DNA from: Butyrivibrio sp.
Lineage (GTDB): Bacteria; Bacillota; Clostridia; Lachnospirales; Lachnospiraceae
Length of the DNA: 44,285 bases
NCBI GenBank assembly: GCA_024690485.1
Contig: JAILPB010000066.1
Location: forward strand, 1 to 44,285
Reading direction: 5' to 3'
Positions 13,352-44,285 of the stretch are shown piece by piece (positions within the stretch are counted from its first letter, which is position 1; every line of letters begins with the position of its first letter). The position numbers were made by a program, and so were the translations under genes. The notes under the pieces are model-generated. The model was not told the origin of the DNA, searched no databases, and saw only the letters and a program-made list of their open reading frames with translations.

Positions 13352-14440
13352 TTAAACTTCTTTTTTATGTCTTTCAGATTTAATGCTGTACAGCTCATCA
13401 TCTGCTTTTTTTATAAGGGCCAGCAGGTCTTCTTTTGAATTCACTACACCAACTGCCATGCCATAACTCACCCTTATTGGGATATCGATTTCCTCAATCC
13501 GGGTTTCCATTACCTTCTTTTCCCACTCATCCATTCGCTCTTTAAAGGAATCCTCTGTGAGCTTAGTTGTCAGAATCAGGAATTCATCGCCTCCGTAGCG
13601 GAAGCAGTCCTTTTTCCTGAATATCTCAAGGAGCCTTCCGGAAGCCATCTTTATGACCTCATCACCTTTTAAATGTCCATACTTATCATTGAAAGCCTTG
13701 AAATAATCTATATCCGACATGGCAACACAGAAAGATGCACCATTCTTGATGGTTATGGAATCAAGCGCAAATCTGTTCATCATACCTGTAAGCTGATCCT
13801 CAGAGGACTTAATATAGAAATCCTCAGCCCTCTGCTGAGCTTCATAGGCCGCGATGATAATATCATTTTTCCTGTGATAATTAACGACACATAGCGACAA
13901 AATTACTACAAGATATGCAAAAGCATTGATAAATACAAGGTTTTTTGCACCGTCATAAGCGAACATCATGGAACACAGAATAATAAATTCTATGATAAGT
14001 AAAACCATGTGATATAAAGGCGTAACCTGAATAAAGGATATAATACCGATAGTTGCTATGAACAATACGATAATCTGCCTGCCCGCCCTATAATTGTTAA
14101 ATGAGGTGTACATGCAAAAAATGGATATAATCAGAATAAAGAACATGACAATAGCAACGGACAGCTTGTGCCCATGTATCTTGCCACGTATAAAAAGTTC
14201 CGCCAAAGCTGCCATTATAAGGCTCGAAACTATGACAATAATGGTAAATATGGTGGTCAGATTGATATAGAAATTGTCATGATAGATAACATAATATCTG
14301 GCCAGAACAAAGCTCTCAATAAGAAAAGTAAAAAAACTCATAGTCTTAATACTGGACATGTTGCCCAGATCTACTATGTCATTTATTTCTTTCTTATTCC
14401 TTGGCAAGAGTAATTTCCATAGTCTGTTAAATAATTCCAT
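13352..14440 (-). CDS. Membrane-bound diguanylate cyclase (GGDEF)
   Basis: 362 residues from ATG 14440, preferred to TTG 14464 because GAGGA stands just before it. Six hydrophobic helices occupy about residues 25-190 and probably form a membrane sensor. The catalytic domain follows a short helix (AYEAQQRAEDFY). The substrate-binding block SDIDYFKAFNDKYGHLKGD and an intact GGDEF at 283-287 indicate an active cyclase that makes c-di-GMP from two GTP. The RKKD before it is one residue out of register for the usual inhibitory RxxD site, so product inhibition may be absent. No EAL domain. A TATAAT at 14485-14490 with a weak -35 could start it. Confidence 0.85.
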   Translation of the reverse strand: MELFNRLWKLLLPRNKKEINDIVDLGNMSSIKTMSFFTFLIESFVLARYYVIYHDNFYINLTTIFTIIVIVSSLIMAALAELFIRGKIHGHKLSVAIVMFFILIISIFCMYTSFNNYRAGRQIIVLFIATIGIISFIQVTPLYHMVLLIIEFIILCSMMFAYDGAKNLVFINAFAYLVVILSLCVVNYHRKNDIIIAAYEAQQRAEDFYIKSSEDQLTGMMNRFALDSITIKNGASFCVAMSDIDYFKAFNDKYGHLKGDEVIKMASGRLLEIFRKKDCFRYGGDEFLILTTKLTEDSFKERMDEWEKKVMETRIEEIDIPIRVSYGMAVGVVNSKEDLLALIKKADDELYSIKSERHKKEV

Positions 14441-14508
14441 AGAATCCTCGCATATTTCCGCCAAAAACTAAAAAGTTCACTAATATTATATACTCTTTTT
14501 TAATTAAA

Positions 14509-15027
14509 TCAGTATTCTACTGTCTTGAACTTTTCCCAGAGATAAACGCCATTTTCTATGCGACTCTTATAGGTGTTTATCATACTCTTTCGAAGAGGCT
14601 CTGCCACATCCGTAAGATCAAACATCCTTGGAACTCTGAGAGTGATAATGTTGATATCCTGAGCAATTCTTCTGGCAATGCCTTCATCCTGCATTGGAAT
14701 CATTCCAAAGAAGGTTGAACCGTAGGTCTTGCTGCTAAGGCAGGACGTAATATAAGTAAGAGACAGATCGTCAAGCTCTTCCAGCATATCGCTGCTAAGC
14801 TCCTGCTTAATTCCGTCTTTATCGCAAAGACCAAGAACTTCCAGATATCCTACGATGCGTTTTCTCTTAAGCCTGGGGAAAGGGAAGCCTGAGCTTCCGT
14901 CCTCACTTAGTAGCATCATAAGTGACCGCAGAAACTTATCGGCGTACTCGTCGCCGTTTTTCTCGTATCTGCGGTCAAACATATGCATACGGTCTTTATA
15001 TTTTTCCAAAAGAACATCAAGTTTCAT
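14509..15027 (-). CDS. Conserved hypothetical protein (possibly DUF6553)
   Basis: 172 residues, soluble, charged, mostly helical by composition; no signal peptide, no membrane span, no known catalytic motif. The N-terminus (VLLEKYKDRMHMFDRRYEKNGDEYADKF) and the central FPFPRLKRKRIVGYLEVLGL block look conserved-family-like; I believe it may be DUF6553 but cannot confirm this. It starts 16 bases after the carbamate kinase-like gene, so the two are very likely co-transcribed. No function is proposed. Confidence 0.6.
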   Translation of the reverse strand: MKLDVLLEKYKDRMHMFDRRYEKNGDEYADKFLRSLMMLLSEDGSSGFPFPRLKRKRIVGYLEVLGLCDKDGIKQELSSDMLEELDDLSLTYITSCLSSKTYGSTFFGMIPMQDEGIARRIAQDINIITLRVPRMFDLTDVAEPLRKSMINTYKSRIENGVYLWEKFKTVEY

Positions 15028-15042
15028 ATATTAAATATCTCT

Positions 15043-15978
15043 TTATGCAGTGATAAATGTACCTGCCTTACCCTTAAGAGCATCTGAAACCTCAGACAGA
15101 GAGGTAATAAGTACGCTACCTGCGGGGTTAGACTTAAGGAAAGAAATAGCTGCCTCAATCTTGGGAAGCATGTTGGTCTCTCCAAAGTGACCTTCTCTGA
15201 TGTACTGCTCTGCAGCTTCAACATTCATTCTCTCGATAGGAGCCTGAGTGTCTTTACCAAAGTCTGTGTAAACATAAGGAACGGAAGTTAAGATGATAAG
15301 TCTGTCTACCTTGAGGTCTGATGCGAGTTTTCCTGCTATAGCATCCTTCTCGATAACTGCTGAAGCACCCTTTAGGACATGTCCCTGCTGGATAACCGGG
15401 ATTCCGCCGCCGCCACAGGCGATAACGATCTGACCTGCATCGGAGAGAGTCTTAATAGTCTCAAGCTCAACGATCTCAATGGGAGAAGGAGCTGCAACTA
15501 TACGAAGATAGCCTTTTCCGGGAACTTCCTTAACGAAATTTCCTTTCTTGATCTCATTATCGGCATCTTCCTTGGACATGTAGCGGCCGATTACCTTGGT
15601 GGGTGCGTAGAAAGCCTCATCATAGGGGTCAACCACAACCTGTGTAAGTATTGTACTAACGGGAGTTGAAATACCTCTGCTGGTAAGCTCGCTCTTTAAT
15701 GAGTTCTGGATATCGTAACCAACATAACCCTGACTCATGGCGCTACATACGCTCATAGGAGCAGGTGTGTAGTCGATATAGATTCTTCTAAGCTCGGTCA
15801 TAGCCTTGTGGATCATGCTGACCTGAGGACCGTTACTGTGTGTGATATTAAGCTGATATCCGGACTGTGCGATATCTGCTAAAGCAACGGCTGTCTTCTG
15901 AACAGCTTCCTTCTGCTCTGACGTTGTATATCCAAGTGCTTCGTGTCCCAGGGACACAACGGCCTTTTTAGTTTCCAT
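15043..15978 (-). CDS. Divergent carbamate kinase family protein
   Basis: 311 residues, GGGAGGA before ATG 15978. The length and blocks such as TQVVVDPYDEAF, GGGGIPV and a MLPKIEAAI helix place it in the carbamate kinase (ArcC) branch of the amino-acid kinase fold, which makes ATP and carbamate from carbamoyl phosphate. The catalytic lysines appear kept (APTKVIG, VIEKD, GKLA). Two glycine-rich substrate loops are changed: the usual GGNA reads GHEA at residues 11-14, and HGNGPQVG reads HSNGPQVS at 47-54. No arcA or arcB is nearby; the partner gene is a hypothetical protein. It may be a paralogue with altered substrate or kinetics. Confidence 0.8.
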   Translation of the reverse strand: METKKAVVSLGHEALGYTTSEQKEAVQKTAVALADIAQSGYQLNITHSNGPQVSMIHKAMTELRRIYIDYTPAPMSVCSAMSQGYVGYDIQNSLKSELTSRGISTPVSTILTQVVVDPYDEAFYAPTKVIGRYMSKEDADNEIKKGNFVKEVPGKGYLRIVAAPSPIEIVELETIKTLSDAGQIVIACGGGGIPVIQQGHVLKGASAVIEKDAIAGKLASDLKVDRLIILTSVPYVYTDFGKDTQAPIERMNVEAAEQYIREGHFGETNMLPKIEAAISFLKSNPAGSVLITSLSEVSDALKGKAGTFITA

Positions 15979-30595: not shown

Positions 30596-31513
30596 TTATT
30601 CTTTCACCGCACCGGTCATGATTCCGTTAACAAAGTATCTCTGGATAAATGGATAAAGGAATATGATAGGTCCGATTGTTACTATGGTTACTGCCATTTT
30701 TACTGTCTCTGTAGGGAGCTTGATGTTGGCTGCTGCCCCTGATGGCACTCTTCCGGAGCTGATGGCATTTACATTGGAGAGGATGTTGTACAGGTAGTAC
30801 TGAAGTGGGAAATACTCTCTGTCATTTACAAACATAAGAGCGTTCCACCAGTCGTTCCAGTAGCCTAAGGCATACATCATTCCAACGGTCATCATGCCCG
30901 TTTTTGTAAGAGGTACTGCGATCATTGACCATATCTTGAAGTAACTTGCGCCATCAATTCTCGCAGATTCGTAGAGGGAAACCGGCACCTGCTCGAAGTA
31001 GTTCCTAAGGAGGAACATGTTAAAAACTCCAAGAAGCTGCGGCACGATAAGAGATCTCAGATTATTACCAAAGCCATACCAGTTCACGCAGACGTAGTAC
31101 CAGGGAATAAGACCTGCGGAAAAGATAATTGTGAAATTACAAAAATATGCAATGGCATTTCTGTATTTCAAGGATTTTATGGACAGTGCAAAGGAACACA
31201 TGCTGGTGATCAGCATAGCGCCTGCGGTTCCGATAACTGTTACAATTATGGTAACGCCGTAGGATCTAAGAATTCTTGCACCACTGTGGGCAAACAGATA
31301 GATATATGTATCTGCCGTAAAATTCCTTGGAAGTACTGAATATCCCTTTTGTACAACTGCCGTATTATCTGACAGTGATACGGATACTACCATAATCAGG
31401 GGAAGAAGACAGGCAAGGGCTATCAGACCTATGAAAATATATGCAAAGGCGATAACAGCAATGTCTGCCCCTGATTTTTTAACTTTTATTCCTTGAGGAG
31501 TGATTTTTATCAT
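30596..31513 (-). CDS. Sugar ABC transporter permease (LplC/YtcP-like, CUT1)
   Basis: 305 residues with six membrane helices. The cytoplasmic EAA loop reads YESARIDGASYFKIWSMIAVPLTKTG, in the position that docks the ATPase. The N-terminal LACLLPLIMVVSVSLSD and the segment YWNDWWNALMFV are typical of LplC-type CUT1 permeases. Its start overlaps the stop of the partner permease (TGATG), so the two are translationally coupled. It forms the membrane channel with the gene at 31513-32421. Confidence 0.9.
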   Translation of the reverse strand: MIKITPQGIKVKKSGADIAVIAFAYIFIGLIALACLLPLIMVVSVSLSDNTAVVQKGYSVLPRNFTADTYIYLFAHSGARILRSYGVTIIVTVIGTAGAMLITSMCSFALSIKSLKYRNAIAYFCNFTIIFSAGLIPWYYVCVNWYGFGNNLRSLIVPQLLGVFNMFLLRNYFEQVPVSLYESARIDGASYFKIWSMIAVPLTKTGMMTVGMMYALGYWNDWWNALMFVNDREYFPLQYYLYNILSNVNAISSGRVPSGAAANIKLPTETVKMAVTIVTIGPIIFLYPFIQRYFVNGIMTGAVKE

Positions 31514-32421
31514 CAGAACAGTCCCTCCCCTTCATTTATTTTCTTGGCAAAATGGTTGGAAATCGTAATAAGGATAAGTCCAAGTACCGACTGCATCAGA
31601 CCAATTGCCGTTGTATATGAGAATCCAAGAGTTCTCATGGACGAATATACGTAAGTATCGATGACTGCAACTTCCTCGTAGAGCAGGGAGTTGTTACCTA
31701 CGATACCGTAGATCATTCCGAAATCTCCAAAGAAAATTCGACCGATCGCCATGAGAGTAAGGATTACAACTGTAGGTTTAAGAAGCGGAAGGGTTATATA
31801 GATTATCTGCTTGAATCTGTTTGCGCCGTCTACTTCTGCCGCCTCGTACAGGGTACTGTCGAAATTGGCAAGGGCCGCCATGTAGATAATGGAGTTATAG
31901 CCGCACCATTTCCAGACGTCAGCTGCTATGATAATAGGCTTCCAATACTTGGGCTCCGCATACCATCTGACGATGTCACCACCAAAGGAATTTATCCACT
32001 GGTTTACTATACCTGTACTTGTTGAAAAGAATGCGTAGATGATAGCTCCCACTACTACCCATGACAGGAAGTAAGGGAAAAACATTACGCTTTGAGATAT
32101 TTTTTTATAGAACTTATTAGCGATGTCATTGAAGCATATGGCAATTGTTATAGGGAAAATGGTTCCCAGAACCAGTCCCCAACTGTTGATGATAAGTGTA
32201 TTTCTGACTGACTTCATGCCAAGACCTGTGCTGGAACTGAAAAAGAATTTGATATTATTTAGTCCCACAAATCTGCTTCCGAAAATGCCGTCAATTATGT
32301 TGTAATCAGTAAATGCCATCCACAGACCGCCGTACGGGATGTAGCAAAATAATATAAGAAAAACGATTGCAGGAACCGTCATCAGGTATAGCTGCCAGTT
32401 TCTCTTAAACTCCTTTTTCAT
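31513..32421 (-). CDS. Sugar ABC transporter permease (LplB-like, CUT1)
   Basis: 302 residues with six membrane helices. The N-terminus (KRNWQLYLMTVPAIVFLILFCYIP as a motif, then GGLWMAFTDY) is the LplB signature, and the EAA loop is LYEAAEVDGANRFKQIIYITLPLLKP. Its ATG overlaps the stop of the preceding gene by four bases (ATGA). No ATPase gene is in this operon, so the transporter presumably uses a shared MsmX-type ATPase coded elsewhere. Confidence 0.9.
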   Translation of the reverse strand: MKKEFKRNWQLYLMTVPAIVFLILFCYIPYGGLWMAFTDYNIIDGIFGSRFVGLNNIKFFFSSSTGLGMKSVRNTLIINSWGLVLGTIFPITIAICFNDIANKFYKKISQSVMFFPYFLSWVVVGAIIYAFFSTSTGIVNQWINSFGGDIVRWYAEPKYWKPIIIAADVWKWCGYNSIIYMAALANFDSTLYEAAEVDGANRFKQIIYITLPLLKPTVVILTLMAIGRIFFGDFGMIYGIVGNNSLLYEEVAVIDTYVYSSMRTLGFSYTTAIGLMQSVLGLILITISNHFAKKINEGEGLF

Positions 32422-33791: not shown

Positions 33792-35036
33792 TTATCTGCC
33801 TCCGCGCATTTCTGAAATGTCTATGGTTCTTCCTTCAACTCTGGACTTCTCTGCTGCAAGGGCCATAATGTGGCTCTCGATCGATCTGTCTATTGCTGAA
33901 AGTGCCTCAATGTTATCATTCTCCAACATATCAAGGAACTGTTCAATAAGGCCTGTATCTCCGCCTCCGTGGAAACCTTCCTGCATGTCGGGATTGTACT
34001 TCTTAACATAAGGAGCTTCCAAGCTGTTTGAAGTAAACCTTGTTACCTCGATCTCGTTTAATTCGTCATCGCCCCTGATCTCACCGTTTTCGCACATAAC
34101 CTTGATGGTTCTGCACATTCTGTTTGTGAAACCGCTGAGGTTGAAGGATGCATGAACTCCGTTTTCAAATTCGAAGATTGCAACCTGATGGTCGCATACG
34201 TTGTTATCGCAGTGGAATACGCATCTGCCGTAAGGTCCCTCTTCTATAGCTTTCATGAGGGCTTCCTCGGACTGGTCAACTGAAAGAACTGTTGCGGGCC
34301 AGTTACCTGCTATTGGAAGATATGCTTTTCTTGCGTCGAACCTGCAATTTTTAACGTGGCAGTTTACGCATCTGTCTGCGCTTCCCTCGGGTGCATTCTT
34401 GCTGTTGAAGTACTCTAAGTCTCCGAAGGATGATACCTTTTTTACTTTGCTATCAACGATCCAGGTGAGCAGATCCATGTCATGGCAGGACTTCTGCATT
34501 ATAAGAGAACTGGTTTCTTCGCTGTTCCTCCAATTGCCTCTTACAAACGAATGTGCAATATGGAAGTTTCCAATATTCTCATTATGCTGTATATCGATGA
34601 CTCTTCCAAGCTCTTCTGACTTAATTATTTTCTTAACTGACGACCAGAAGCCTGTATATCTAAGGACGTGGCAGACCACAACCTTACATTTATTTTTAAG
34701 GGCAAGATCTCTTATTGCAAGGCATTCTTCGAGATTAGGTGAAATGGGCTTTTCAAGAAGTATGTCGTATCCAAGTTCCAGGGCAGGCATTGTGTGTTCG
34801 TAGTGCTGTCTGTCCATTGTTGCAATGATCACTGCATCACAGACTTTTCCCAATTTGTAAAAATCCTTGGGATCATCAAAAATGTTTTCCGCTGGTATGT
34901 TGTATTTCTTTACTGCTGCCTCTCTTCTGTCTTTGTCAGGCTCAACCAAATAAGCAATTTCAGCTCTATTATGGTCAAAAGCATAATCGGCATAAACTCT
35001 TCCCCTTTGGCCTGCTCCTATAAGTGCTAATTTCAT
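33792..35036 (-). CDS. Gfo/Idh/MocA family NAD(P)-dependent oxidoreductase
   Basis: 414 residues, GGGAGAG before ATG 35036. Rossmann loop IGAGQRGRVYAD at 6-17, the catalytic-lysine motif EKP at 95-97 and SCHDMDLL (H185, D186, D188) are typical of sugar or inositol dehydrogenases of this family. An inserted segment has cysteines at 223, 226, 231, 272, 276 and 281 (CVNCHVKNC and CVFHCDNNVC), a feature of one known branch; it may bind zinc. It probably oxidises or epimerises the imported sugar. GH109-type hydrolysis by an NAD-dependent relative was considered, but its motifs are absent. First gene of a six-gene operon. Confidence 0.82.
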   Translation of the reverse strand: MKLALIGAGQRGRVYADYAFDHNRAEIAYLVEPDKDRREAAVKKYNIPAENIFDDPKDFYKLGKVCDAVIIATMDRQHYEHTMPALELGYDILLEKPISPNLEECLAIRDLALKNKCKVVVCHVLRYTGFWSSVKKIIKSEELGRVIDIQHNENIGNFHIAHSFVRGNWRNSEETSSLIMQKSCHDMDLLTWIVDSKVKKVSSFGDLEYFNSKNAPEGSADRCVNCHVKNCRFDARKAYLPIAGNWPATVLSVDQSEEALMKAIEEGPYGRCVFHCDNNVCDHQVAIFEFENGVHASFNLSGFTNRMCRTIKVMCENGEIRGDDELNEIEVTRFTSNSLEAPYVKKYNPDMQEGFHGGGDTGLIEQFLDMLENDNIEALSAIDRSIESHIMALAAEKSRVEGRTIDISEMRGGR

Positions 35037-35053
35037 TTCTCTCTCCCATTAAA

Positions 35054-35132
35054 TTGTTTACGGAATATTGTTACCTTGTTGTTAACCACATTATATTACC
35101 TTTGTTACTCGTTGTAAACCTAGATTGTTACC
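35054..35132. promoter_or_regulatory. Five TTGTTAC-like direct repeats around the sugar-operon promoter
   Basis: TTGTTTACG (35054), TTGTTACC (35068), TTGTTAACC (35079), TTGTTAC (35102) and TTGTTACC (35125) are all in the same orientation, with starts 14, 11, 23 and 23 bases apart. They lie upstream of, between and downstream of the promoter hexamers, which suggests cooperative binding by one regulator. The regulator is unknown. Confidence 0.5.
35090..35118 (-). promoter_or_regulatory. Promoter of the sugar-transport operon
   Basis: On the minus strand TTTACA (35113-35118), a 17-base spacer and a perfect TATAAT (35090-35095) lie about 55 bases before the ATG at 35036. This is the best promoter in the window. 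Confidence 0.7.
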
Positions 35133-35193
35133 TAGAATTATTTTTCGTCATGATGCACAAATATTCAGCAATTTTTTAATGAATGGAACCATA

Positions 35194-35232
35194 TAAAAAA
35201 GGAACGTTTCCTTTTTATAAGGAAACGTTCCT
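35194..35232 (-). terminator. Terminator after mgtC
   Basis: AGGAACGTTTCC (35200-35211) and GGAAACGTTCCT (35221-35232) form a perfect 12-bp stem; on the minus strand TTTTTT follows. It separates the second transport cluster from the sugar operon. Confidence 0.88.
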
Positions 35233-35256
35233 GTTAGTTCAGGTTAACAAAAACCA

Positions 35257-35955
35257 TCATACTTCTTCTACATAGCTGACATAATCCAGTCCGTTCAGCT
35301 TGTTTATGAAATCTCTGTGGGACTGTCTCTTCTCAAAATCAACATCCACAAGAAGTGCTACGTCAGCTGACATAAGAGTTTTCTCTTTGCTTTTTGTCAT
35401 ACTGCTTATTATGAAATTTTGTTCTTCCATCCACTTGGAGAGCTTCTTTACGCCGCCGCTCTTGTTTACTTCAATGTAAATGCAGATGTATTTACTGTAT
35501 TCTTCAACGTGGTTACTAAGCTGCATAAGCACAACGTTGGCTATCATTACCAGCAAAAAGCAGGTAATTCCTATGATAATGTAGCCTCCGCCTATGGCCA
35601 TGCCCATGCAGGATGTTACCCACAGGGAAGCTGCTGTTGTGAGTCCTTTTATCTGCTTTTTTCCTGTTACAAGAATGGTTCCTGCCCCAAGGAAACCTAT
35701 ACCGCTTACCACACCTGCGGGAATGCGACTTACGTCAGCATTAAGTTCCGGCAGCATGGCGAGGTAGATGTTTAAAGATGTAGCTACTGCAGATCCAAGG
35801 CTTACAAGGGCAAAGGTTTTAATACCGGCATTGTGTCTTTTTACAATGCGCTCCCAACCTATAAGGCTTCCAAAAAGAGTAGCCAGCACCAATCTTATGG
35901 CAACAGCAATATCATTTGGACTCTCCAGAAAATCGATGATCAAAGACCAATTCAT
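35257..35955 (-). CDS. MgtC/SapB family membrane protein
   Basis: 232 residues, AGGAG before ATG 35955. The first 145 residues form about five membrane helices with the family blocks GSLIGWERIVKRHNAGIKTFALVSLGSA (read as a motif region), PAGVVSGIGFLGAGTIL and GLTTAASLWVTSCMGMA. The rest is a cytoplasmic ACT-like domain. MgtC proteins are tied to magnesium limitation and to control of ATP synthase or phosphate uptake in pathogens; the role in commensals is unclear. It follows the ATPase gene by 29 bases and precedes a strong terminator, so it is probably the last gene of the transporter operon. A link to phosphate balance during sugar-phosphate import is an inference. Confidence 0.85.
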   Translation of the reverse strand: MNWSLIIDFLESPNDIAVAIRLVLATLFGSLIGWERIVKRHNAGIKTFALVSLGSAVATSLNIYLAMLPELNADVSRIPAGVVSGIGFLGAGTILVTGKKQIKGLTTAASLWVTSCMGMAIGGGYIIIGITCFLLVMIANVVLMQLSNHVEEYSKYICIYIEVNKSGGVKKLSKWMEEQNFIISSMTKSKEKTLMSADVALLVDVDFEKRQSHRDFINKLNGLDYVSYVEEV

Positions 35956-35984
35956 TGCTTATCTCCTGTCTACAATTATTACTA

Positions 35985-37046
35985 TCAAAGTGCATAGAGT
36001 GTGTTTTCTTCAAAGTTAAGGAAAACAGAATCTCCAACCTTGTAGATCTTCTTGTTCTTTGGATTGTATTCCTGAATCTTAACCTGTGTGTTACCGACCT
36101 GGATGTGATAGTCCTGATAAGCACCCATGAAGCATGAGTATTTAACTGTTCCCTGTACCTGGCCATTGTCACCAAGGAATGCGCCTTCGGGACGAAGAAC
36201 TACGCTGCAGGTAGCTCCTTTTTCCATGCTTCCTGTTGCGCACTTAACATCTGCGCCGTTTATCTCTACTACGTCCTGAGCCTTAACTACGCCCTCAAGG
36301 AAATTAGCCTCGCCGATGAAGTCAGCTACAAACTTGTTATTAGGATAGTAATATGCTTCCTGAGGGGTTGAGATCTGCTCTACAAGACCGCCGTTCATGA
36401 TAATAACCTTGTCAGAGATAGCCATTGCTTCACTCTGATCGTGGGTTACATAGATAGCTGTGATTCCGGCTTCCTGCTGGATTCTTCTGATCTCTGTTCT
36501 CATGGAAACACGAAGCTTTGCATCAAGGTTTGAGAGAGGCTCGTCGAATAAAAGAACGCCGGGCTCGATTACAAGTGCTCTTGCAAGAGCTACTCTCTGC
36601 TGCTGCCCACCGGACAACTGGTTAGTCATACGGTTTTCCATTCCTTCAAGTCCCACAAGACTGAGGATGTCGATTACCTTTTTCTTAATTGTTTCCTTGT
36701 CCATCTTGCGGAGCTTAAGTCCGTAAGCTACGTTATCGAAGATGTTGTAGTGAGGAAGGAGCGCATAGCTCTGGAAAACCATAGCTGTGTCACGCTTGTT
36801 GGGTGTAAGAGCGTTTATAGGCTCATTTCCAAGATAAATTTCTCCCTCGTCCGGGCTCTCGAAACCTGCGATCATTCGAAGGGTTGTTGTTTTACCGCAT
36901 CCGGAAGGTCCAAGAAGGGTAACAAAGCTACCGGGCTCGATCTCGATATTTGCATCCTTAACAGCATAGAAGTCTTTTCCTGTCTTGGGATCTTTATATA
37001 TTTTTGAAATGTGTTCAAGGCGTACGCCCTTTTTCTCTTTTGCCAT
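35985..37046 (-). CDS. ABC transporter ATPase (FbpC/AfuC/PotA-like)
   Basis: 353 residues from ATG 37046, chosen for the GGAG before it; ATG 37061, overlapping the permease stop, is an alternative. Walker A GPSGCGKT at 46-53, Q-loop FQSYALLPHY, signature LSGGQQQ at 144-150, Walker B VLLFDEP at 164-170 and the switch VTHDQ near 203. The C-terminal 110 residues form a TOBE domain (CSVVLRPEGAFLG). This type powers uptake of iron, spermidine, phosphonate or hexose-phosphate. It works with the fused permease directly upstream. Gene order and binding-protein residues favour an AfuC-like role. Confidence 0.9.
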   Translation of the reverse strand: MAKEKKGVRLEHISKIYKDPKTGKDFYAVKDANIEIEPGSFVTLLGPSGCGKTTTLRMIAGFESPDEGEIYLGNEPINALTPNKRDTAMVFQSYALLPHYNIFDNVAYGLKLRKMDKETIKKKVIDILSLVGLEGMENRMTNQLSGGQQQRVALARALVIEPGVLLFDEPLSNLDAKLRVSMRTEIRRIQQEAGITAIYVTHDQSEAMAISDKVIIMNGGLVEQISTPQEAYYYPNNKFVADFIGEANFLEGVVKAQDVVEINGADVKCATGSMEKGATCSVVLRPEGAFLGDNGQVQGTVKYSCFMGAYQDYHIQVGNTQVKIQEYNPKNKKIYKVGDSVFLNFEENTLYAL

Positions 37047-37060
37047 ATTTTTATTCTCCA

Positions 37061-38773
37061 TCAATCTGCCGTTTCAATTCTGCGGCTTGTTCCAAAGTGT
37101 TTTATTACCAGGTTCATAATAAGAACTGAGCTGTAAGTAATGAGGATCAGGATACTTGCAAATGCGCAGGCGATTCCGTAGGATCCTTTTTCAGCAAATT
37201 CATTGATCTGAACTGTAATAAGAAGATACGAAGGTGTAACCAGAAGGATGATCGCACTGATAGCTGTGATACTGCGAACAAATGAGGTTACAAAGCCACT
37301 AAGGAAGCTGTCCTTAATAAGCGGAAGTGTTACTGTCATAAATACCTTGAAGCTGTCTGCACCCATGTCGTAGGCTGACTCTTCAATGCTCTTATCGATC
37401 TGACGAAGAGCCGAGATTCCGCTTCGTGTACCTGTTGGAAGGCTTCGTACGATGAATACAATAACCAGGATTGCTCCTGTTCCGTAGAGGCCCTGGAGGA
37501 TTCCTGAACCAAAGAGTCCTCCTGAAAATCCTCTGATGTATCCGATACCAAGAACTGTTCCGGGAACAGCCATAGCCAGCATTGAAACTGCTTCGATGAA
37601 TCCCTTTGCCTTGAATTTTCTCTTAACTACAAGGTAGGAGATGATCATAGACAAAAGTGCAGTTATCGGTGCTGATATAAGTGACAGAACAAAGCTGTCC
37701 TTGAATGCCTTGAATCCCTTGTACTTGGTAAATACCTGGCCGAACCACTTGAATGTAAGGTGGAAGTCGTAGCCCCAGGTCTTGAACATTGCTCCGAAGG
37801 GAACGCAGATGTACATAAGGATTACAAATATTGCAAGGGCTGAGCACATGATCGTAAGAGGAACGGTAACGCTCTTATCTGTAATGAGCATACGCTCTCT
37901 TGATGCTTTTCCTGAGAGAGTTGCTGTGCTCTTTGCCTCAAGATAGTACTTCTGGATCACGAACATAAGGAGTGTGATAACAAGGAGGATCACAGCCATT
38001 GCTGCAGCGCCTTCTTTATCGTAAGCTCCGGTTATCTGCAAATATATAGTTGTTGCCAAAGTATCATATGAACCACCGATGATCATGGGGTTTGCAAAGT
38101 CTGCAATGGATTCGATGAATGTTACAAGGAATGCATTTCCAAGACCGGGCAGTATCAATGGTAATGTCACTGTCATAAATACCTTGAATCTGGAAGCGCC
38201 CATATCTCTTGCAGCTTCCTCCAAGGATGGATCGATATTTTTCAAAAGTCCCTTAAGCATCATGTAGCATACAGGGAAGAATGTAAGTGTCTGAACAATG
38301 GCGATTCCCCAGAATCCATAAACACTGTTGTCGTAAATCTTTAAAAGAAAACGTGTGATAATTCCCGCTTTTCCGAAAAGCATGATCATTGAAAGGGAAA
38401 GTACAAAGGGCGGTGAAACTACAGGGAGCATTGATACTACCTTGAAGAGACCCTCCATAAATCTTGTACGAAGCTTTACATAAACTTCCACATAGGCAAA
38501 CAAAAGACCGATGAGGGCTGATGCAATACCTACCAAAAATCCGACTTTTAATGTATTGGTAATGGCTCTTCTAAAGTTTGCAAGGTCCATTACTCTCTTA
38601 AATGTATTAAGGGTAAACCCTTCGTCTGAAATAAAACTGTCCACCAGCAATATCGCCAGGGGATATAAGATAAATACTGTTAAAAAGACAATCAAAAGCA
38701 CAATGGTTGTGACCATTATCGGATCGCCCAAAAGCTTTTTTCTGTCAAGGCTGGCACTTTGACTCTTTGCCAT
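37061..38773 (-). CDS. Fused double-domain ABC permease (FbpB/AfuB-like)
   Basis: 570 residues, twelve membrane helices in two homologous halves, each with an EAA docking loop: EEAARDMGASRFKVFMTVTLP near 185-205 and EESAYDMGADSFKVFMTVTLP near 465-485 (the two are almost identical). This single-chain layout is that of ferric-type permeases, including AfuB. AAGGAGG stands 9 bases before ATG 38773, directly behind a terminator-like hairpin that probably reduces permease expression relative to the binding protein. It forms the membrane pore for the binding lipoprotein at 38858 and the ATPase at 35985. Confidence 0.9.
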   Translation of the reverse strand: MAKSQSASLDRKKLLGDPIMVTTIVLLIVFLTVFILYPLAILLVDSFISDEGFTLNTFKRVMDLANFRRAITNTLKVGFLVGIASALIGLLFAYVEVYVKLRTRFMEGLFKVVSMLPVVSPPFVLSLSMIMLFGKAGIITRFLLKIYDNSVYGFWGIAIVQTLTFFPVCYMMLKGLLKNIDPSLEEAARDMGASRFKVFMTVTLPLILPGLGNAFLVTFIESIADFANPMIIGGSYDTLATTIYLQITGAYDKEGAAAMAVILLVITLLMFVIQKYYLEAKSTATLSGKASRERMLITDKSVTVPLTIMCSALAIFVILMYICVPFGAMFKTWGYDFHLTFKWFGQVFTKYKGFKAFKDSFVLSLISAPITALLSMIISYLVVKRKFKAKGFIEAVSMLAMAVPGTVLGIGYIRGFSGGLFGSGILQGLYGTGAILVIVFIVRSLPTGTRSGISALRQIDKSIEESAYDMGADSFKVFMTVTLPLIKDSFLSGFVTSFVRSITAISAIILLVTPSYLLITVQINEFAEKGSYGIACAFASILILITYSSVLIMNLVIKHFGTSRRIETAD

Positions 38774-38789
38774 ATCCCATGTCCTCCTT

Positions 38790-38820
38790 AAAAATATGGG
38801 CGGAAGTTTTTCCGCCCATA
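38790..38820 (-). terminator. Intercistronic hairpin (attenuator) between binding protein and permease
   Basis: TATGGGCGGAA and TTCCGCCCATA form a perfect 11-bp stem with a 4-base loop; on the minus strand TTTTT follows, and the permease ribosome site begins right after it. A partial terminator here would give more binding protein than permease, as is common for ABC importers. Confidence 0.75.
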
Positions 38821-38857
38821 GTAAATCACTTCTCAGCCTAATAAAATGGAATTTCGC

Positions 38858-40084
38858 TTACTCTGTCTGGAAACGATCGTCAGCAGCACTACCAAGTGCA
38901 GTCATAACTTCTTCTACGTAAGTTGTTGTATTTTCTTTTGCATCCTCGAAGTCATAGTCCATAACGTTCTCAGGATCAAGACCGAACTGTGCTGCGATCT
39001 CAGGCTGCTGTGCGTTATCAATAACGAGGAACTGGTAAGAACCGTTCTGAGCTGCAAGCTCTACGCACTCAGGGCTAAGAGCATACTCGATCCAAAGCTT
39101 TGCAGCATTGGGATGTGCGCAACCCTTGAAGATAGCTGTAGCACCAACCTCGAAGGATGTTCCTGATGAAGGAATGATGAGGTCGATATTGCCATAACCG
39201 TTGTCAACGATCTGTGTGATACCATCGTGAAGGAATCCGATACCTACTGTACACTCGCCTGTTCCGATGTTCTTAGAAGGGCCTGAACCTGACTTTGTGT
39301 AAACTTCGATGTTCTTATCAAGGTCTACAAGGTACTGGATACCTTCGTCATGACCATACTTCTGGATCATTGTGTTAACAACAAGCTTAGCTGTTCCTGC
39401 TGTGTTGTAGTTTGAAAGCCAGATAAGTCCCTGGTACTTAGAATCAAGTAGATCCTGCCAATCTGCAGGTGCGTCGATGCCCTTACGCTCAAGTTCATCC
39501 TTGTTTACCATGAATCCTAGGATTCCCTTGTAAATACCATACCAATATCCGTCCTTGTCGCGATATGTGTCGCTTATAAGGTGGCTGGCATTCTGAGCTT
39601 CATAAGCTTCAAGAAGTCCTTCGCCTGCTGCTACGTTGTAAGGATCTGTTGTTCCGCCAAACCATACGTCACCGGAAGGGTTTCCATTCTCTTCCTCGAT
39701 CTTACTCTGTACTTCACCGGTTGAAAGACGCTGATACTGTACTTTTACACCATAGAGTTCTTCAAAGTGCTCACAAGCTGCTGCAAGGTATTCTTCCTCA
39801 CATGAACCGTAAACAACCAGTTCTCCCTCAGCCTTTGCTGCCTCTATAAGTGAATCTAAATCTCCTGCTGCAGTCTCTTCTGTAGCAGTCTCTTCTGTAG
39901 CTGTTTCTTCTGTTGCTGTAGCCTCTTCTGTAGTAGCCTCAGTCTCTGTCTCTGTTGCTGCCTCAGTAGAAGTCTCTTCTGTGCTTGCAGGTGCCTCAGT
40001 AGTTGTCTCACTGCTGCCGCCTGCGCATCCAATGATGCTTGTAGCCATAAGTCCTGCTAAAACCAATGCTAATTTCTTTTTCAT
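38858..40084 (-). CDS. ABC binding lipoprotein, AfuA-like (hexose-phosphate candidate)
   Basis: 408 residues from ATG 40084, which has GGAAAGGAG before it; an open frame extends upstream to 40156 without a ribosome site. Signal peptide with lipobox, lipidated C20 (SIIGC). Residues 25-75 are a Thr/Glu-rich spacer with repeats of ATEET. The binding domain is of the ferric type II fold (LVVYGSCEEEYLAAACEHFE). Where FbpA proteins carry the iron-binding Tyr pair, this protein has H286-D287 (FLHDG) and a later E312 (SFEVGA). As I recall the AfuA structure, a His-Asp pair and a Glu hold the sugar of hexose phosphates. Iron is therefore unlikely; hexose phosphate is the leading idea. Confidence 0.8.
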   Translation of the reverse strand: MKKKLALVLAGLMATSIIGCAGGSSETTTEAPASTEETSTEAATETETEATTEEATATEETATEETATEETAAGDLDSLIEAAKAEGELVVYGSCEEEYLAAACEHFEELYGVKVQYQRLSTGEVQSKIEEENGNPSGDVWFGGTTDPYNVAAGEGLLEAYEAQNASHLISDTYRDKDGYWYGIYKGILGFMVNKDELERKGIDAPADWQDLLDSKYQGLIWLSNYNTAGTAKLVVNTMIQKYGHDEGIQYLVDLDKNIEVYTKSGSGPSKNIGTGECTVGIGFLHDGITQIVDNGYGNIDLIIPSSGTSFEVGATAIFKGCAHPNAAKLWIEYALSPECVELAAQNGSYQFLVIDNAQQPEIAAQFGLDPENVMDYDFEDAKENTTTYVEEVMTALGSAADDRFQTE

Positions 40085-40098
40085 ATCCTTCTCCTTTC

Positions 40099-40114
40099 CA
40101 AATGTAAACATTTG
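40099..40114. promoter_or_regulatory. Small dyad in the transporter leader
   Basis: CAAATG-TAAA-CATTTG is a perfect inverted repeat just upstream of the ribosome site of the binding-protein gene. It may be an operator or a short leader hairpin. Confidence 0.4.
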
Positions 40115-40145
40115 ATAATAAAAGGATAAAAGAATACTAAAAAGT

Positions 40146-40183
40146 ACTATACCCAAATTTCTGTTTTCTTATCCGAATTTCTG
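40146..40183 (-). promoter_or_regulatory. Promoter with 20-bp-spaced direct repeat for an AraC-type regulator
   Basis: On the minus strand TATAGT (-10, 40146-40151) is preceded by CAGAAATTTGGGT (40151-40163) and CAGAAATTCGGAT (40171-40183). The repeats match at 11 of 13 positions and are 20 bases apart, about two helical turns. The far repeat covers the position of the -35, which is itself poor (GGATAA). This is the classic layout of a promoter switched on by a dimeric AraC-type activator, here most likely the regulator coded just upstream. Confidence 0.6.
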
Positions 40184-40190
40184 AACTATC

Positions 40191-40952
40191 TCAATTTATG
40201 AACTCGGAGGGTGCAGTTCCGGTATAGCGCTTAAACACCGTATTAAAGTGCTTGTAGTCTGTAAAGCCGGTGAGGTCTGACACTTCATAAACCTTATATT
40301 TTCCGGTTTCAAGTAGTTTTATTGCCTGCTGCACGCGGTACTTATTCAGAAAATCAAGGAAGCCTGTTCCTGTGGACTCCTTGAATTTCCTTGAGAGATA
40401 GCTTGCTGAAACTCCAAGTTCCTCTGAAAAAGACTCGATACTTATCTTGTCTGCGTATCTCTCCTTGGTTACATCAAGTACATGCTGAACATAGTCGTTT
40501 TCTTTATCTGTTTTTATGAACACTTCAGTGATTTCTTCCGTGCTTTTCTTTTTCTCCGCAAACTTCTGATATTCCTGATCCTTCTCGATTTCTGCGATTA
40601 TCTTCTCGACGTTTTTCTTAAGTTCTCTCTCGTCAACAGGTTTCATAAGATATGCTGAAACATCCAGATCTATTGCCTGTTTTGCGTAGTCAAAATCTGC
40701 ATAACTGGTTAAGATGATTGATTTAAAGCTGTAATTTTCCTTGGCTTTTCTTATCATCTCTATCCCGTCTATGACAGGCATCATAATGTCTGCAAGTACG
40801 ATGTCGGGCTTAAGCTCCTCTATTTTCTCAAGTCCCTCTTTTCCGTTTGCAGCTTCCCCTGCTATGGTGCAGCCCATACCCATCCAGTCCATGGTATAGG
40901 CGATGCCTTTTCTGATGATATCTTCATCCTCAACAATTAAAACTCTATACAT
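40191..40952 (-). CDS. AraC-type response regulator (YesN/HptR-like)
   Basis: 253 residues, GGGGGAT before ATG 40952. Receiver domain 1-120 with the acidic pocket (VEDED), phospho-acceptor D55 in VLADIMMP, conserved Thr/Ser in LTSYADF and Lys in MKPVDER. After a charged coiled-coil-like linker come two helix-turn-helix motifs of AraC type (about 155-253; ELGVSASYLSRKFKESTG and TGFTDYKHFNTVFKRYTGTAPSEF). Length and layout match HptR of Staphylococcus. It probably binds the direct repeat immediately downstream of its own gene and turns on the transporter. Starts 17 bases after the kinase. Confidence 0.92.
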   Translation of the reverse strand: MYRVLIVEDEDIIRKGIAYTMDWMGMGCTIAGEAANGKEGLEKIEELKPDIVLADIMMPVIDGIEMIRKAKENYSFKSIILTSYADFDYAKQAIDLDVSAYLMKPVDERELKKNVEKIIAEIEKDQEYQKFAEKKKSTEEITEVFIKTDKENDYVQHVLDVTKERYADKISIESFSEELGVSASYLSRKFKESTGTGFLDFLNKYRVQQAIKLLETGKYKVYEVSDLTGFTDYKHFNTVFKRYTGTAPSEFIN

Positions 40953-40969
40953 CTAATCCCCCGATTTTT

Positions 40970-42628
40970 TCATGCATAATGTCTTGGAATAACTATTCTG
41001 ACTGTGGTTCCTTCATCCTTTACACTGCTGATATCAAGGCCGTACTCTCCCTTGTACATAAGTCTGATCCTGCGATGAATGTTGTAGATTCCAAAGTGCT
41101 GGGATGAGTCAGCATCCGACCGGAGATTGTGCAAGATTTCTTCCAGCCTGTCCTTTTCTATTCCTGCGCCGTCATCCTTGCATATAAAAACAATATCCTC
41201 TTTTATCTGATAGCCCTTGATGTCAACGGTTAACTTTTCCTGTCCTGCAAAGCCGTATTTTACTGCATTTTCAAGAAGGGGCTGTATCAAGAGCTTTGGT
41301 ATCAGGCAGTCCATTATATCCTCAGCCACATCTATATTATAGGCAAATCTTTTGTTGAAGCGGATCTGCAAGATGTTCAGATAGTCCTGAACGTTGGAAA
41401 GGTCCTCTCGTACAGTAACTTCTTCTCTTGAATCCCTGATACTGTAGCGAAGAAGTCCAGACAAGGAGACGATCATCTTGTCTGCCGCTCCGGAATCTAT
41501 CTTAGCCATGAACCTGATGTTGTCCAGTGTATTAAATAAAAAGTGCGGATTGAACTGGCTTTCAAGCTGTTTTACCTGTGAAAAAGCAACGTTCTCGGCA
41601 AGCTCTCTGTTCTGATTGATCTGCTCCTTAAGACCGCTTAACATCTCATTAAAATCGTTACCTATAGTCATGAACTCACGGCTACTGTTTATATTTAGCT
41701 TTACATCGAAGTCGCCGTTCTGAACAGCCTCGAAGGCATCTTCGATTTTCTTAATATCTCTGGTATAGCGAACGGAGCTGTTGGACGAGCTTCTATAAGC
41801 TATAAATATGATCGCAGCAAAGATCACAACGATAATGCCTATAAGTACTATTATCAGCCATATGCTTCTGGTGAGGTCGTTAACAGTTATGACATTTAAG
41901 CCTTTTCCTGTCTCGGTCTTATATGAATAGTAGAAGTGATTTCCCACTTTCATATATCCGGATCTTAAACTGTAGTCATCCTGAATCTGTCCGTATTCGT
42001 CATTCAGAACCCATGTGTTACTGGCAAATACCCATCCATTCACGTCTGTGATGTATACGTATCTGCTGGAACCTATGATAGAGTCAGTAATTATTTTTTC
42101 GGGAACCATGTAGACTATGGCACACTTTAAGGTATCTCCATCATATATTCCCTTTGCAACATAGAGGTTACTCTCATACAGGGTTGTGCTTATTTCTCCC
42201 GGATTTCGCCTTATAGCATTCCACACTCCCCAGTTTGAATATACTGTCTGAGTCAGGTACTTGGGAACTGAGCCTTTGCTGGTAAAAAGGATCTTTTGAT
42301 CAGGAGATAAAAGAATAAGGTTTCCGATCTCTCCAAACTCGTCTGTCTTACTATAGAGAACGTCAAATATTTTATCCATAACTACGCTGTCAGTTTCTAA
42401 GTAGCGCCTCTCTACTGTATCCACCATGTCGTAGTAGATATTCATATCTCTGCTTATTTCCTGCTCTACTTCATGATTGTCGACTTCGTTGAAGTGGGCC
42501 ACAAAATAGCTCCACGCAAAAACAAAGATAACCATGGCAAGTACGACTATTACAGCGACAGGCACAACGGAATATCTGATGAAGGTTCTTCTAATATTTT
42601 CCTGGAAGGATCTGACTTCTTTACTCAT
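40970..42628 (-). CDS. Membrane sensor histidine kinase (YesM/HptS-like)
   Basis: 552 residues from ATG 42628, with GGAGG six bases before it; the upstream in-frame start at 42664 lies inside the previous gene. One membrane helix near residues 15-40, an extracellular Cache-like sensor (about 45-255), a second helix (about 260-285), a HAMP-like linker and a His_kinase domain with phospho-acceptor H362 (SQFNPHFLFN). The ATP-binding part has PLLENAVKYGF and DDGAGIEKD. The ATG overlaps the stop of the preceding binding-protein gene by 8 bases, so the two are translationally coupled and probably act as one sensor. Confidence 0.92.
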   Translation of the reverse strand: MSKEVRSFQENIRRTFIRYSVVPVAVIVVLAMVIFVFAWSYFVAHFNEVDNHEVEQEISRDMNIYYDMVDTVERRYLETDSVVMDKIFDVLYSKTDEFGEIGNLILLSPDQKILFTSKGSVPKYLTQTVYSNWGVWNAIRRNPGEISTTLYESNLYVAKGIYDGDTLKCAIVYMVPEKIITDSIIGSSRYVYITDVNGWVFASNTWVLNDEYGQIQDDYSLRSGYMKVGNHFYYSYKTETGKGLNVITVNDLTRSIWLIIVLIGIIVVIFAAIIFIAYRSSSNSSVRYTRDIKKIEDAFEAVQNGDFDVKLNINSSREFMTIGNDFNEMLSGLKEQINQNRELAENVAFSQVKQLESQFNPHFLFNTLDNIRFMAKIDSGAADKMIVSLSGLLRYSIRDSREEVTVREDLSNVQDYLNILQIRFNKRFAYNIDVAEDIMDCLIPKLLIQPLLENAVKYGFAGQEKLTVDIKGYQIKEDIVFICKDDGAGIEKDRLEEILHNLRSDADSSQHFGIYNIHRRIRLMYKGEYGLDISSVKDEGTTVRIVIPRHYA

Positions 42629-43649
42629 CTGACACCTCCCCGGATAACCCCGTAAAGGTATCAAGCCATTTTTGTTTGTTTTCTATTACTTCCTGCCTGT
42701 CAGCGTCGCAGCTCAGCATCTCATAGATGGGAATAAGCATGCTTGCGCCGATAACATCCTCTCTTACAGAGCGTCTTCCCAGGTTATTTGCAATGTAGCG
42801 CTGTGCATCCTTGGATGTCATAAAGTCCACGAACTTTTTGGCGTTTTCGATTCTTGATGAGTTTTTATTGATATAGATTCCGTCAGGTGTTGATACTACG
42901 CCCTCTGACATGTAGATGATCTTAACATGGCTTCCTGCTTTTAGCATGGTAAAAGCAGCCTCCTCAAAGGTAAGTCCCACCTTAAATTTGCCGTTTGCTA
43001 CGCCTTTATATACTTCTGATGAGTTGTCGAGAAGAACGCCGTCCAGATTTTTAAGGAGTGCATCAACATAGTCCCAGCCCTTATCAGGGTTCCCATCTCC
43101 CATGGCATAGAGCATGTTTACAAGGTGCTCAAAAGAAGATGAGGATTTTGACGGATCTGCAAAGGCTATCTGGCCTTTTAATTCATCCTGCAAAAGATCC
43201 TCGTAGCCATTTATCTCAATATCTCCAATGACATCTTCGTTGATCATAAGTACGCTCGGCACATTGGTGAAGCAGGTGATTTTGTCACTAAAATCAGCAT
43301 ACTCTTCCATGAAGTCCACACGGTTTGGCGTTTCATAGGAATAGAAATAGTCCTCGTAAGGCCCAACAGACAGGACAGATCCCCCCCAGAGAATATCTGT
43401 GCCACTATCTGAAATGATCTCGTTTATGGCATCTGAGGTTCCGGAGTTTTTAAGTTCTACTGCTATGCCTGTCTCATTCTCAAATTCCTGAATAAGAGGG
43501 ATCATAAACTCCGTGGGATGGGGCGAAACTACCACGAGTTTTTTGCTTAGAGCTTCTTTTTTGCCGTCTGATGATGAGTAAATAAACATCACAAACATGA
43601 CTATCAAAACTATTATTAAACTGATTAAGATTTTTATTTTTTTAGACAT
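42621..43649 (-). CDS. Membrane-anchored binding protein, HptA-like ligand sensor
   Basis: 342 residues from ATG 43649, with no clear ribosome site. An uncleaved-looking N-terminal helix (residues 4-26, ending MFIYSSS with no lipobox Cys) anchors it to the membrane. The remainder is a ferric-type II binding fold (LVVVSPHPTEFMIPLIQEFENETG region, GTDILWGG, FTNVPSVLM). At the position of the iron-binding Tyr pair it has FEEAA, followed by SEGVVSTPDG, parallel to the Asp and Glu of the AfuA-like protein. It is coupled to the kinase gene. Binding protein, YesM kinase and AraC regulator in this order and size match HptA-HptS-HptR, the glucose-6-phosphate sensor of Staphylococcus. Confidence 0.82.
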   Translation of the reverse strand: MSKKIKILISLIIVLIVMFVMFIYSSSDGKKEALSKKLVVVSPHPTEFMIPLIQEFENETGIAVELKNSGTSDAINEIISDSGTDILWGGSVLSVGPYEDYFYSYETPNRVDFMEEYADFSDKITCFTNVPSVLMINEDVIGDIEINGYEDLLQDELKGQIAFADPSKSSSSFEHLVNMLYAMGDGNPDKGWDYVDALLKNLDGVLLDNSSEVYKGVANGKFKVGLTFEEAAFTMLKAGSHVKIIYMSEGVVSTPDGIYINKNSSRIENAKKFVDFMTSKDAQRYIANNLGRRSVREDVIGASMLIPIYEMLSCDADRQEVIENKQKWLDTFTGLSGEVSDE

Positions 43650-43704
43650 GTCTATACGATATCACAATAGATAAGAAGTGCAAGGAAGGATATTTCCTAT
43701 GATA

Positions 43705-43753
43705 CAAAAAATCGCAGATACCTGCCGATTGGTAAGTATCTGCGATAATTTTT
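43705..43753. terminator. Terminator after the isomerase gene
   Basis: ATCGCAGATAC (43711-43721) pairs with GTATCTGCGAT (43736-43746), a perfect 11-bp stem. T runs follow on both strands (six on the minus strand), so it ends the isomerase transcript before the sensor operon. Confidence 0.88.
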
Positions 43754-43777
43754 TTGTTTAGTTTTCCCTGATCCGAA

Positions 43778-44285
43778 TTAAGCGAAAGGGTTCTCTGTAG
43801 GATAAGGAAGTGATGCAGGCTGGTTGTAGCCGATTACTTCAGCACCTACATACTTGAATACCTCGTAAAGAGCCTTTCCGAAGTGTCCGAATGCAACTGC
43901 TCCGTGGTGAGGGAAGTTGTGCTGGATGAGGATGTGTCTGTAGAAACGTCCCATCTCAGGAATAGCGAATACACCGATGCCGCCGAAGGACTGTGTAGCT
44001 ACAGGAAGAACTTCACCCTGTGCAACATAAGCCTTGAGGTGGTTATCAGATGTGCTCTGTAATCTGTAGAATGTGATATCACCGGGAACGATGTCACCTT
44101 CAAGTGTTCCCTGTGTAACTTCCTCAGGAAGGTTTCTGGCCATGATTCTCTGGAACTTCATCTCGCAGCTTGAAAGCTTGCTTGTGCATGTATTTCCGCA
44201 GTGGAAGCCCATGAATGTATCTGTGTGCTTGTAGTCGAACTTGCCCTTGATTGACTGCTCATACATATCAGCAGGAACAGAGTTG
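43778..44285 (-). CDS. L-fucose/L-arabinose isomerase family protein, C-terminal part (truncated by window)
   Basis: About 169 residues; the frame stays open to the window edge, so the N-terminal two thirds are missing. The blocks MGFHCGNT, TFYRLQSTSDNHLKAYVAQGE (motif region), FGGIGVFAIPEMGRFY and QHNFPHHGAVAFGHFG are those of the C-terminal domain of L-fucose isomerase-like proteins, which interconvert aldoses and ketoses with a divalent metal. The His-rich QHNFPHH segment lies at the active site. The exact sugar is open; fucose, arabinose or a related deoxy-sugar are possible. A strong terminator 25 bases past the stop separates it from the sensor genes. Confidence 0.8.
   Translation of the reverse strand, partial: NSVPADMYEQSIKGKFDYKHTDTFMGFHCGNTCTSKLSSCEMKFQRIMARNLPEEVTQGTLEGDIVPGDITFYRLQSTSDNHLKAYVAQGEVLPVATQSFGGIGVFAIPEMGRFYRHILIQHNFPHHGAVAFGHFGKALYEVFKYVGAEVIGYNQPASLPYPTENPFA

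Follow-up and report, generated by a model that had tools for sequence, protein, structure and literature searches.

We examined a seven-gene locus in a 44,285-nucleotide stretch of Butyrivibrio sp. DNA (contig JAILPB010000066.1; hereafter the window, which is the entire contig of a genome that is 73% complete) and consider it likely to be a three-part sensor of the HptASR type coupled to an importer of the AfuABC type. The gene order, the family membership of the proteins, an AfuA-like pocket, the geometry of an operator and its match to the staphylococcal uhpT site carry this reading. An earlier interpretation made from the letters and open reading frames (the sequence-only reading) had joined an Hpt-like sensor to an Afu-like importer; at the family level this junction is well supported, on matches to HptA (1.5e-36) and AfuA (3e-57), the AfuA sugar triad and a uhpT-type operator. 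The control element, a pattern of two classes and the place of MgtC in the operon go beyond that reading.

All seven genes were confirmed on the minus strand. The sensor trio begins with an HptA-like, membrane-anchored binding protein of 342 residues, BP1 (42621–43649), characterized by phmmer, an AlphaFold model and Foldseek. It is followed by a sensor histidine kinase (40970–42628) with the Pfam domains PF06580, HATPase and HAMP and a Cache-like outer domain. The kinase starts at an internal ATG at 42628, giving the 8-bp overlap with BP1 described before, and the 17-bp gap to the next gene is likewise as described. That gene encodes an HptR-like response regulator with an AraC-type helix-turn-helix (40191–40952; PF00072, PF12833 and PF00165). 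The importer consists of an AfuA-like binding lipoprotein, BP2 (38858–40084), an AfuB-like permease (37061–38773), whose two PF00528 stretches bear out its description as a fused double permease, and an AfuC-like ATPase with a TOBE_2 domain (35985–37064; Pfam). An MgtC family membrane protein (35257–35955; PF02308, 9.4e-36) comes last. The trio and an AfuA-type BP2 are found together in 28 loci including the window, mostly in the same order, in the comparison of gene order that the sequence-only reading had proposed; the arrangement is therefore not due to chance. The closest named relatives are Butyrivibrio and the others Lachnospiraceae, many from rumen or gut according to their record titles, in agreement with the earlier attribution to a gut or rumen anaerobe.

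Among solved structures, phmmer places AfuA (4r72, 3e-57) first for BP2, followed by a Vibrio protein (8x1a, 1.6e-56) whose structure title is glucose-6-phosphate binding protein. The AfuA triad H205/D206/E229 corresponds to H286/D287/E312 of BP2 (numbering of the 408-residue frame), the residues pointed out earlier, and is present in 29/29 sequences of a BP2 alignment from which two identical copies had been dropped. Tyr103, Gln269, Thr150, Gly149, Gly185, Thr60 and Ser9 of AfuA are also identical in all 29. BP2 departs from AfuA at Ser37 (Thr), Thr11 (Glu), Gly36 (Ser) and Ser148 (Ala), and most of the AfuA phosphate-site residues are kept across the alignment. In AfuA, His205, Asp206 and Glu229 hold the sugar, and their mutation is reported to have abolished detectable binding (PMC4546632, PMC8427247). 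The genes for the binding protein, the fused permease and the ATPase adjoin. The locus thus has in common with AfuABC of Actinobacillus and Citrobacter (and with Vibrio 8x1a) the sugar triad, most phosphate-site residues, the fused double permease and the ATPase; it differs in its Gram-positive lipoprotein, the adjacent HptASR-like sensor and the MgtC gene after the importer. Family-level evidence supports an AfuABC-type importer with hexose-phosphates as the predicted cargo. Such an importer alone is not new, since Sit and colleagues had already predicted AfuABC in Firmicutes from the same three residues (PMC4546632).

It should be mentioned that in NCBIfam the importer proteins score best with models named for 2-aminoethylphosphonate, polyamine or ferric transport, and that no listed model reaches its cut-off; the earlier warning that such importers would be mislabelled was a fair one. 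Ferric iron import under the control of an iron-responsive sensor would agree with a fold family common to ferric-binding proteins and with the 348.3 bits of the ATPase against a ferric transporter model. However, that score falls short of the cut-off of 496, and the closest solved structures are AfuA for BP2 and HptA for BP1, not ferric-binding proteins. Where the ferric-binding protein 1y4t has its iron-binding tyrosine pair, the aligned residues of BP2 are Val-Gly, and the matching stretch of BP1, placed by the AfuA alignment, reads VGLTFEE, so that both proteins do combine the ferric fold with absence of the Tyr pair, as had been noted. We regard the iron reading as the least credible of all. 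An importer of 2-aminoethylphosphonate of the PhnSTUV type, suggested by the best NCBIfam matches of BP2 (phnS2) and the permease (PhnU2), is very improbable: BP2 reaches 170.6 of the 392.75 bits required and the permease 304.5 of 593.25 (PhnT2, 362.4 of 457.7), and the sole chain listed under the 2-aminoethylphosphonate name, 4r6y, matches BP2 weakly (5e-09 versus 3e-57 for AfuA). Import of pyridoxal-phosphate by a P5PAB-type system is very improbable. P5PA ranks third among the solved structures that match BP2 (3.8e-45), but it has Ala at both the D206 and the E229 positions, where 29/29 BP2 sequences have Asp and Glu, and it is described in the cited source only from Pasteurellaceae (PMC8427247). 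The NCBIfam cut-offs, the Tyr pair and the pocket residues led us to set these three readings aside.

For BP1, the closest solved structure by phmmer is HptA (6lki, 1.5e-36). The AlphaFold model of BP1 (predicted local distance difference test, pLDDT, 91.6) has an N-terminal helix at residues 3–35 and no lipobox, and Foldseek with this model lists HptA (6lkg, 2.0e-24) first and then AfuA (1.4e-22). Residues F228-E229-E230 and S248-E249-G250, the FEE and SEG motifs of the sequence-only reading, are in place, and Ser or Thr is kept at most phosphate-site positions. The model of the N-terminal half of the kinase (pLDDT 85.6) matched mainly Cache-type sensor domains of chemoreceptors and kinases among the 50 Foldseek matches listed, which include no HptS chain; phmmer found no solved relative of this outer half. 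The locus shares with HptASR of Staphylococcus the gene order binding protein, kinase, regulator, the combination of a PF06580 kinase with an AraC-type response regulator, and HptA as the nearest solved relative of BP1. Unlike HptASR, its target operon encodes an AfuABC-like ATP-binding cassette (ABC) importer and not the UhpT antiporter; BP1 carries a membrane helix where S. epidermidis HptA has a lipobox-like N-terminus, and both the ring-side pocket residues of BP1 and, by blastp, the outer domain of the kinase are unlike their staphylococcal counterparts. FspSR of group B Streptococcus, a two-component system said to regulate fructose-6-phosphate metabolism, is likened here from a citing description alone.

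The sensor and the importer are linked by a 38-bp element at 40149–40186 on the minus strand, upstream of the importer genes. The consensus upstream of BP2 in relatives, GTTCAGAAATTCGGATAAnnAAACAGAAATnTgGGTAT, contains two similar half-sites in direct repeat with a step of about 20–21 bp, and a −10-like hexamer, TATCCT (40123–40128, minus strand), follows the element of the window after 20 nt. We refer to the Butyrivibrio form, with the sensor trio and an AfuA-type importer, as class A, and to 67 loci in which BP1 accompanies another type of ATPase and permease and AfuA is absent as class B. The class-B sample is no census, as the collection scan contributed the best 80 of 244 and the rest came from sampled genomes. 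A class-A matrix built from 23 sites was run over both strands of 101 annotated sequences (100 loci, some from the same genome, plus the window; 1,712,103 bases). It gave 41 matches above 12 bits, namely 28 before BP2, 12 before the first gene of another importer operon (including L054 and L140, which are one contig) and one (L073) that follows a regulator gene where the contig ends. The element is upstream of BP2 in 28/28 BP2 loci with the trio, a count that is partly circular, since the matrix was built from 23 of these loci and, of the remaining five, four are near copies or come from the same genome. It was found in 0/3 BP2 loci lacking the full trio (L068, L069, L070).

Class B provides a stricter comparison. 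In 34 of 55 non-redundant class-B loci the class-A matrix ranks the upstream region of the first importer gene first, where 4.0 are expected; for 100 column-shuffled matrices ranked in the same way the mean was 5.41 and the highest count 11. The class-A matrix thereby locates the element ahead of a different importer in other families too. This test replaced a first ranking (42/69 loci first), in which several genes per operon competed and near copies were kept. The promoter geometry is fixed as well: TAnnnT stands exactly 20 bases after the element in 22/23 class-A sites and in 26/31 class-B sites beginning GTTCA, four of 35 class-B sites with other beginnings being left out. A best match that starts with GTTCA and is followed by TAnnnT at +20 or +21 is found in 30/49 class-B loci with a kinase, in 0/6 without one and in 1/760 control upstream regions. 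In the window's own, 73% complete genome the pattern, with up to three mismatches, occurs once, at this locus, and no further regulon member was found there. Matches occurred in 8 of 12 other genomes; four matches lay away from these loci, compared to six control matches. Based on its conservation and fixed promoter geometry, 40149–40186 is the predicted operator of the window's response regulator. It is noted that in L090 genes for TrkH and TrkA potassium uptake (13526–15554) lie between the regulator and BP2 and the operator remains with BP2; L091 has genes of the same sizes.

The same element is found before uhpT in Staphylococcus. In a 12.8-kb S. epidermidis record, genes for a binding protein, a sensor kinase and a response regulator adjoin uhpT; the record gives no such names, and we take them to be hptA, hptS and hptR. 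The best match in this locus is upstream of uhpT with both the class-B matrix (31.3 bits, the next 8.6) and the class-A matrix (7.0 bits, the next −6.3). The element extends from 96 to 59 bases before the uhpT start codon, and TATATT follows 21 bases after it. For S. aureus uhpT the HptR site is given as −67 to −96 (PMC6291074). Because the element before S. epidermidis uhpT lies where this site is reported, the window regulator is very probably HptR-like and would read an HptR-type operator, with AfuABC instead of UhpT as its target.

Anywhere in the 67 class-B loci, a kinase-like gene was seen in 59, a Cof-type HAD phosphatase in 31 (PF08282 in L125) and a chemoreceptor-like gene in 13. Probably, one class-B binding protein serves both the importer and the kinase, whereas the Butyrivibrio form appears to split these jobs between two binding proteins, the sensor being usually membrane-anchored. 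By pattern, 57/64 class-B binding proteins are lipoproteins and 7/64 lack a lipobox, three of the seven (L103 and L194, one contig, and L112) being broken open frames. Among class-A sensors, 24/28 have no lipobox by a simple pattern; four match it (L052, L094, L061 and L095), and in L052 and L094, from one genome, the match is probably false and inside a long helix. Sensors beside another importer are lipoprotein-like in 3/4 cases. A strict rule, with a lipoprotein as the shared form and a membrane helix as the sensor-only form, was rejected, as there are exceptions both ways and S. epidermidis HptA is a pure sensor yet lipoprotein-like; the anchor type seems to track the classes only loosely.

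A tree was built from 80 BP1-type proteins after removal of near-identical rows and was rooted at the midpoint. Class A falls within class B there; the nodes leading to it have support of 97/96, 100/97 and 100/99, and its branches are longer than those of the neighbouring class-B proteins. The first of the supported sets also takes in L058, whose sensor neighbours yet another importer; L061, which has a separate AfuABC, adjoins that set with weaker support (91/69). The tree suggests that the importer was replaced by AfuABC and that the old binding protein turned into a dedicated sensor; this direction of change is inferred, since the root is the midpoint. Among class-B loci, the chemoreceptor-like gene adjoins the HAD phosphatase at the operon end in L054 (same contig as L140), L055, L110, L125 and L135; PF00015 was confirmed in L055, L125 and L140, and the others were assigned by blastp. 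Given this position, a single binding protein might supply chemotaxis as well as uptake and gene control in these loci. In L070 (10194–18290) the importer is followed by a 300-residue kinase without an outer sensor domain and then by a Na/H exchanger and MgtC, with no BP1 and no operator match; the sensor protein and the kinase domain for its contact are missing together.

The module is also present outside the Bacillota. On plasmid pHIC of the fusobacterium Haliovirga abyssi (L215) the order is BP1, kinase, regulator, an extra gene, BP2, permease, ATPase and MgtC, with identities of 47% (BP1), 29% (kinase), 47% (regulator), 37% (BP2), 44% (permease), 50% (ATPase) and 38% (MgtC, over 140 residues). 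Its BP2 has the His-Asp pair and the Glu, and its BP1 has a hydrophobic N-terminus without a lipobox by eye. The element upstream of BP2 scores 26.6 bits with the class-B matrix (next 3.2) and 1.2 with the class-A matrix (next −7.3). This module adjoins murQ, nagA and nagB. Cetobacterium (L217) has the trio, with no importer in the stretch; the class-B and joint matrices place the element before BP1 (22.2 and 19.3 bits, respectively), the class-A matrix elsewhere. In Fusobacterium vincentii (L216), which carries a class-B importer, no kinase was seen in the stretch; the best operator score, 10.0 bits, lies away from the region before the importer and is unconvincing.

Several observations weigh against the coupled Hpt–Afu reading. 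At the AfuA triad positions BP1 has E230, A231 and T254, and HptA itself has Q, D and N. With staphylococcal HptS, blastp aligns the C-terminal part of the kinase alone (27.6%) and gives no match for the outer domain. The combination of GTTCA and TAnnnT is missing in 19 of the 49 class-B loci with a kinase: nine of these lie on more distant tree branches (L062, L063, L064, L066, L199, L201, L203, L204 and L205), two begin GGTCA (L101 and L102), two are broken frames (L103 and L112), and six have no evident reason (L100, L104, L123, L142, L150 and L213). The best class-A matrix match in Cetobacterium (20.6 bits) is at an unrelated place, and the zero point of the S. aureus numbering is unstated in the source as far as consulted (PMC6291074).

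With respect to the ligand, it is possible, though rather unlikely, that the importer carries hexose-phosphates and the sensor reads another compound, either a different sugar phosphate or inorganic phosphate with sugar, in a loose match. BP1 mostly keeps the phosphate-site Ser/Thr residues, but the replacement of the AfuA sugar triad means that its ligand need not be glucose-6-phosphate. Position 254, equivalent to AfuA Glu229, is Thr in 25/26 class-A sensors versus Lys in 42/58 class-B proteins, so ligands may differ between the classes, and the murQ, nagA and nagB neighbours in Haliovirga hint at amino-sugar phosphates there. On the other side, 28 loci combine the sensor with an AfuA-type importer, one operator connects the two, and HptA, the nearest solved relative of BP1, binds glucose-6-phosphate (PMC13419708, PMC8774646). 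In the proposed alignment of the binding proteins with AfuA and HptA, BP2 keeps the triad and BP1 differs.

MgtC directly follows the ATPase in 16/26 loci in which the next gene is visible (15/24 without two same-genome repeats). An intrinsic-terminator-like hairpin with a 14-pair stem and a T run (35200–35232, minus strand) lies directly 3′ of MgtC, so the importer transcript appears to end with this gene, probably the last of the operon; a scan for such hairpins found 6 sites against 6.9 in shuffled sequence, and the weight of this one comes from its stem and place. In Salmonella, MgtC reportedly stimulates the uptake of phosphate (PMC6658541); its role here is probably phosphate balance. 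Other loci have different genes after the ATPase and no MgtC: a 576-residue protein without a Pfam match in L085, with one of equal length in L082, and a 618-residue DUF6044 protein in L089. A second hairpin with a T run, between BP2 and the permease (38795–38820, minus strand; fold z-score −2.75), is a possible attenuator. In this gap a stem of at least 7 pairs, often with a T run, was seen in 24/30 loci by a loose rule without a shuffled baseline, and the hairpin may determine how much permease is made relative to binding protein. Rfam at gathering thresholds found nothing over 34900–44285. Upstream of the trio is a cut-off L-fucose isomerase C-terminal gene, and a separate downstream cluster, outside this system, contains a UgpA-like sugar ABC permease (31513–32421, weak match) near a Gfo/Idh oxidoreductase.

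Considering these results, we propose that BP1, held to the membrane by its N-terminal helix, would bind a phosphorylated sugar outside the cell and act on the kinase through its Cache-like outer domain, and the kinase would phosphorylate the AraC-type regulator. The regulator would bind the direct repeat at 40149–40186 beside the −35 region and turn on BP2, permease, ATPase and MgtC, presumably by activation rather than repression. BP2 would then pass hexose-phosphates to the fused permease and the ATPase. A broader proposal can be made only tentatively, and we hold it with less than even confidence: across Bacillota and Fusobacteriota one HptR-type operator would mark a family of sensor-driven sugar-phosphate importers. 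In its common form a single lipoprotein would serve the importer and the kinase, and in a few loci perhaps a chemoreceptor; in the Butyrivibrio form AfuABC would have been swapped in, with a dedicated membrane-anchored sensor and MgtC as a phosphate-balance partner. In the titles and the starts of abstracts of the open-licence literature, AfuABC is nowhere connected with a sensor of the Hpt type and the operator is not described outside Staphylococcus; a prior description of either is possible.

The predicted function implies that many transporters of gut and rumen anaerobes labelled as ferric, polyamine or phosphonate transporters would import sugar-phosphates, and the operator would be a DNA signature for finding such mislabelled importers. 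The locus would show how a known trio of signalling proteins has come to control another transporter via the same operator. The shared binding protein of one class and the split sensor of the other would form a natural series for how one protein serves both a kinase and a transporter, and MgtC would be tied to organic-phosphate uptake outside pathogens.

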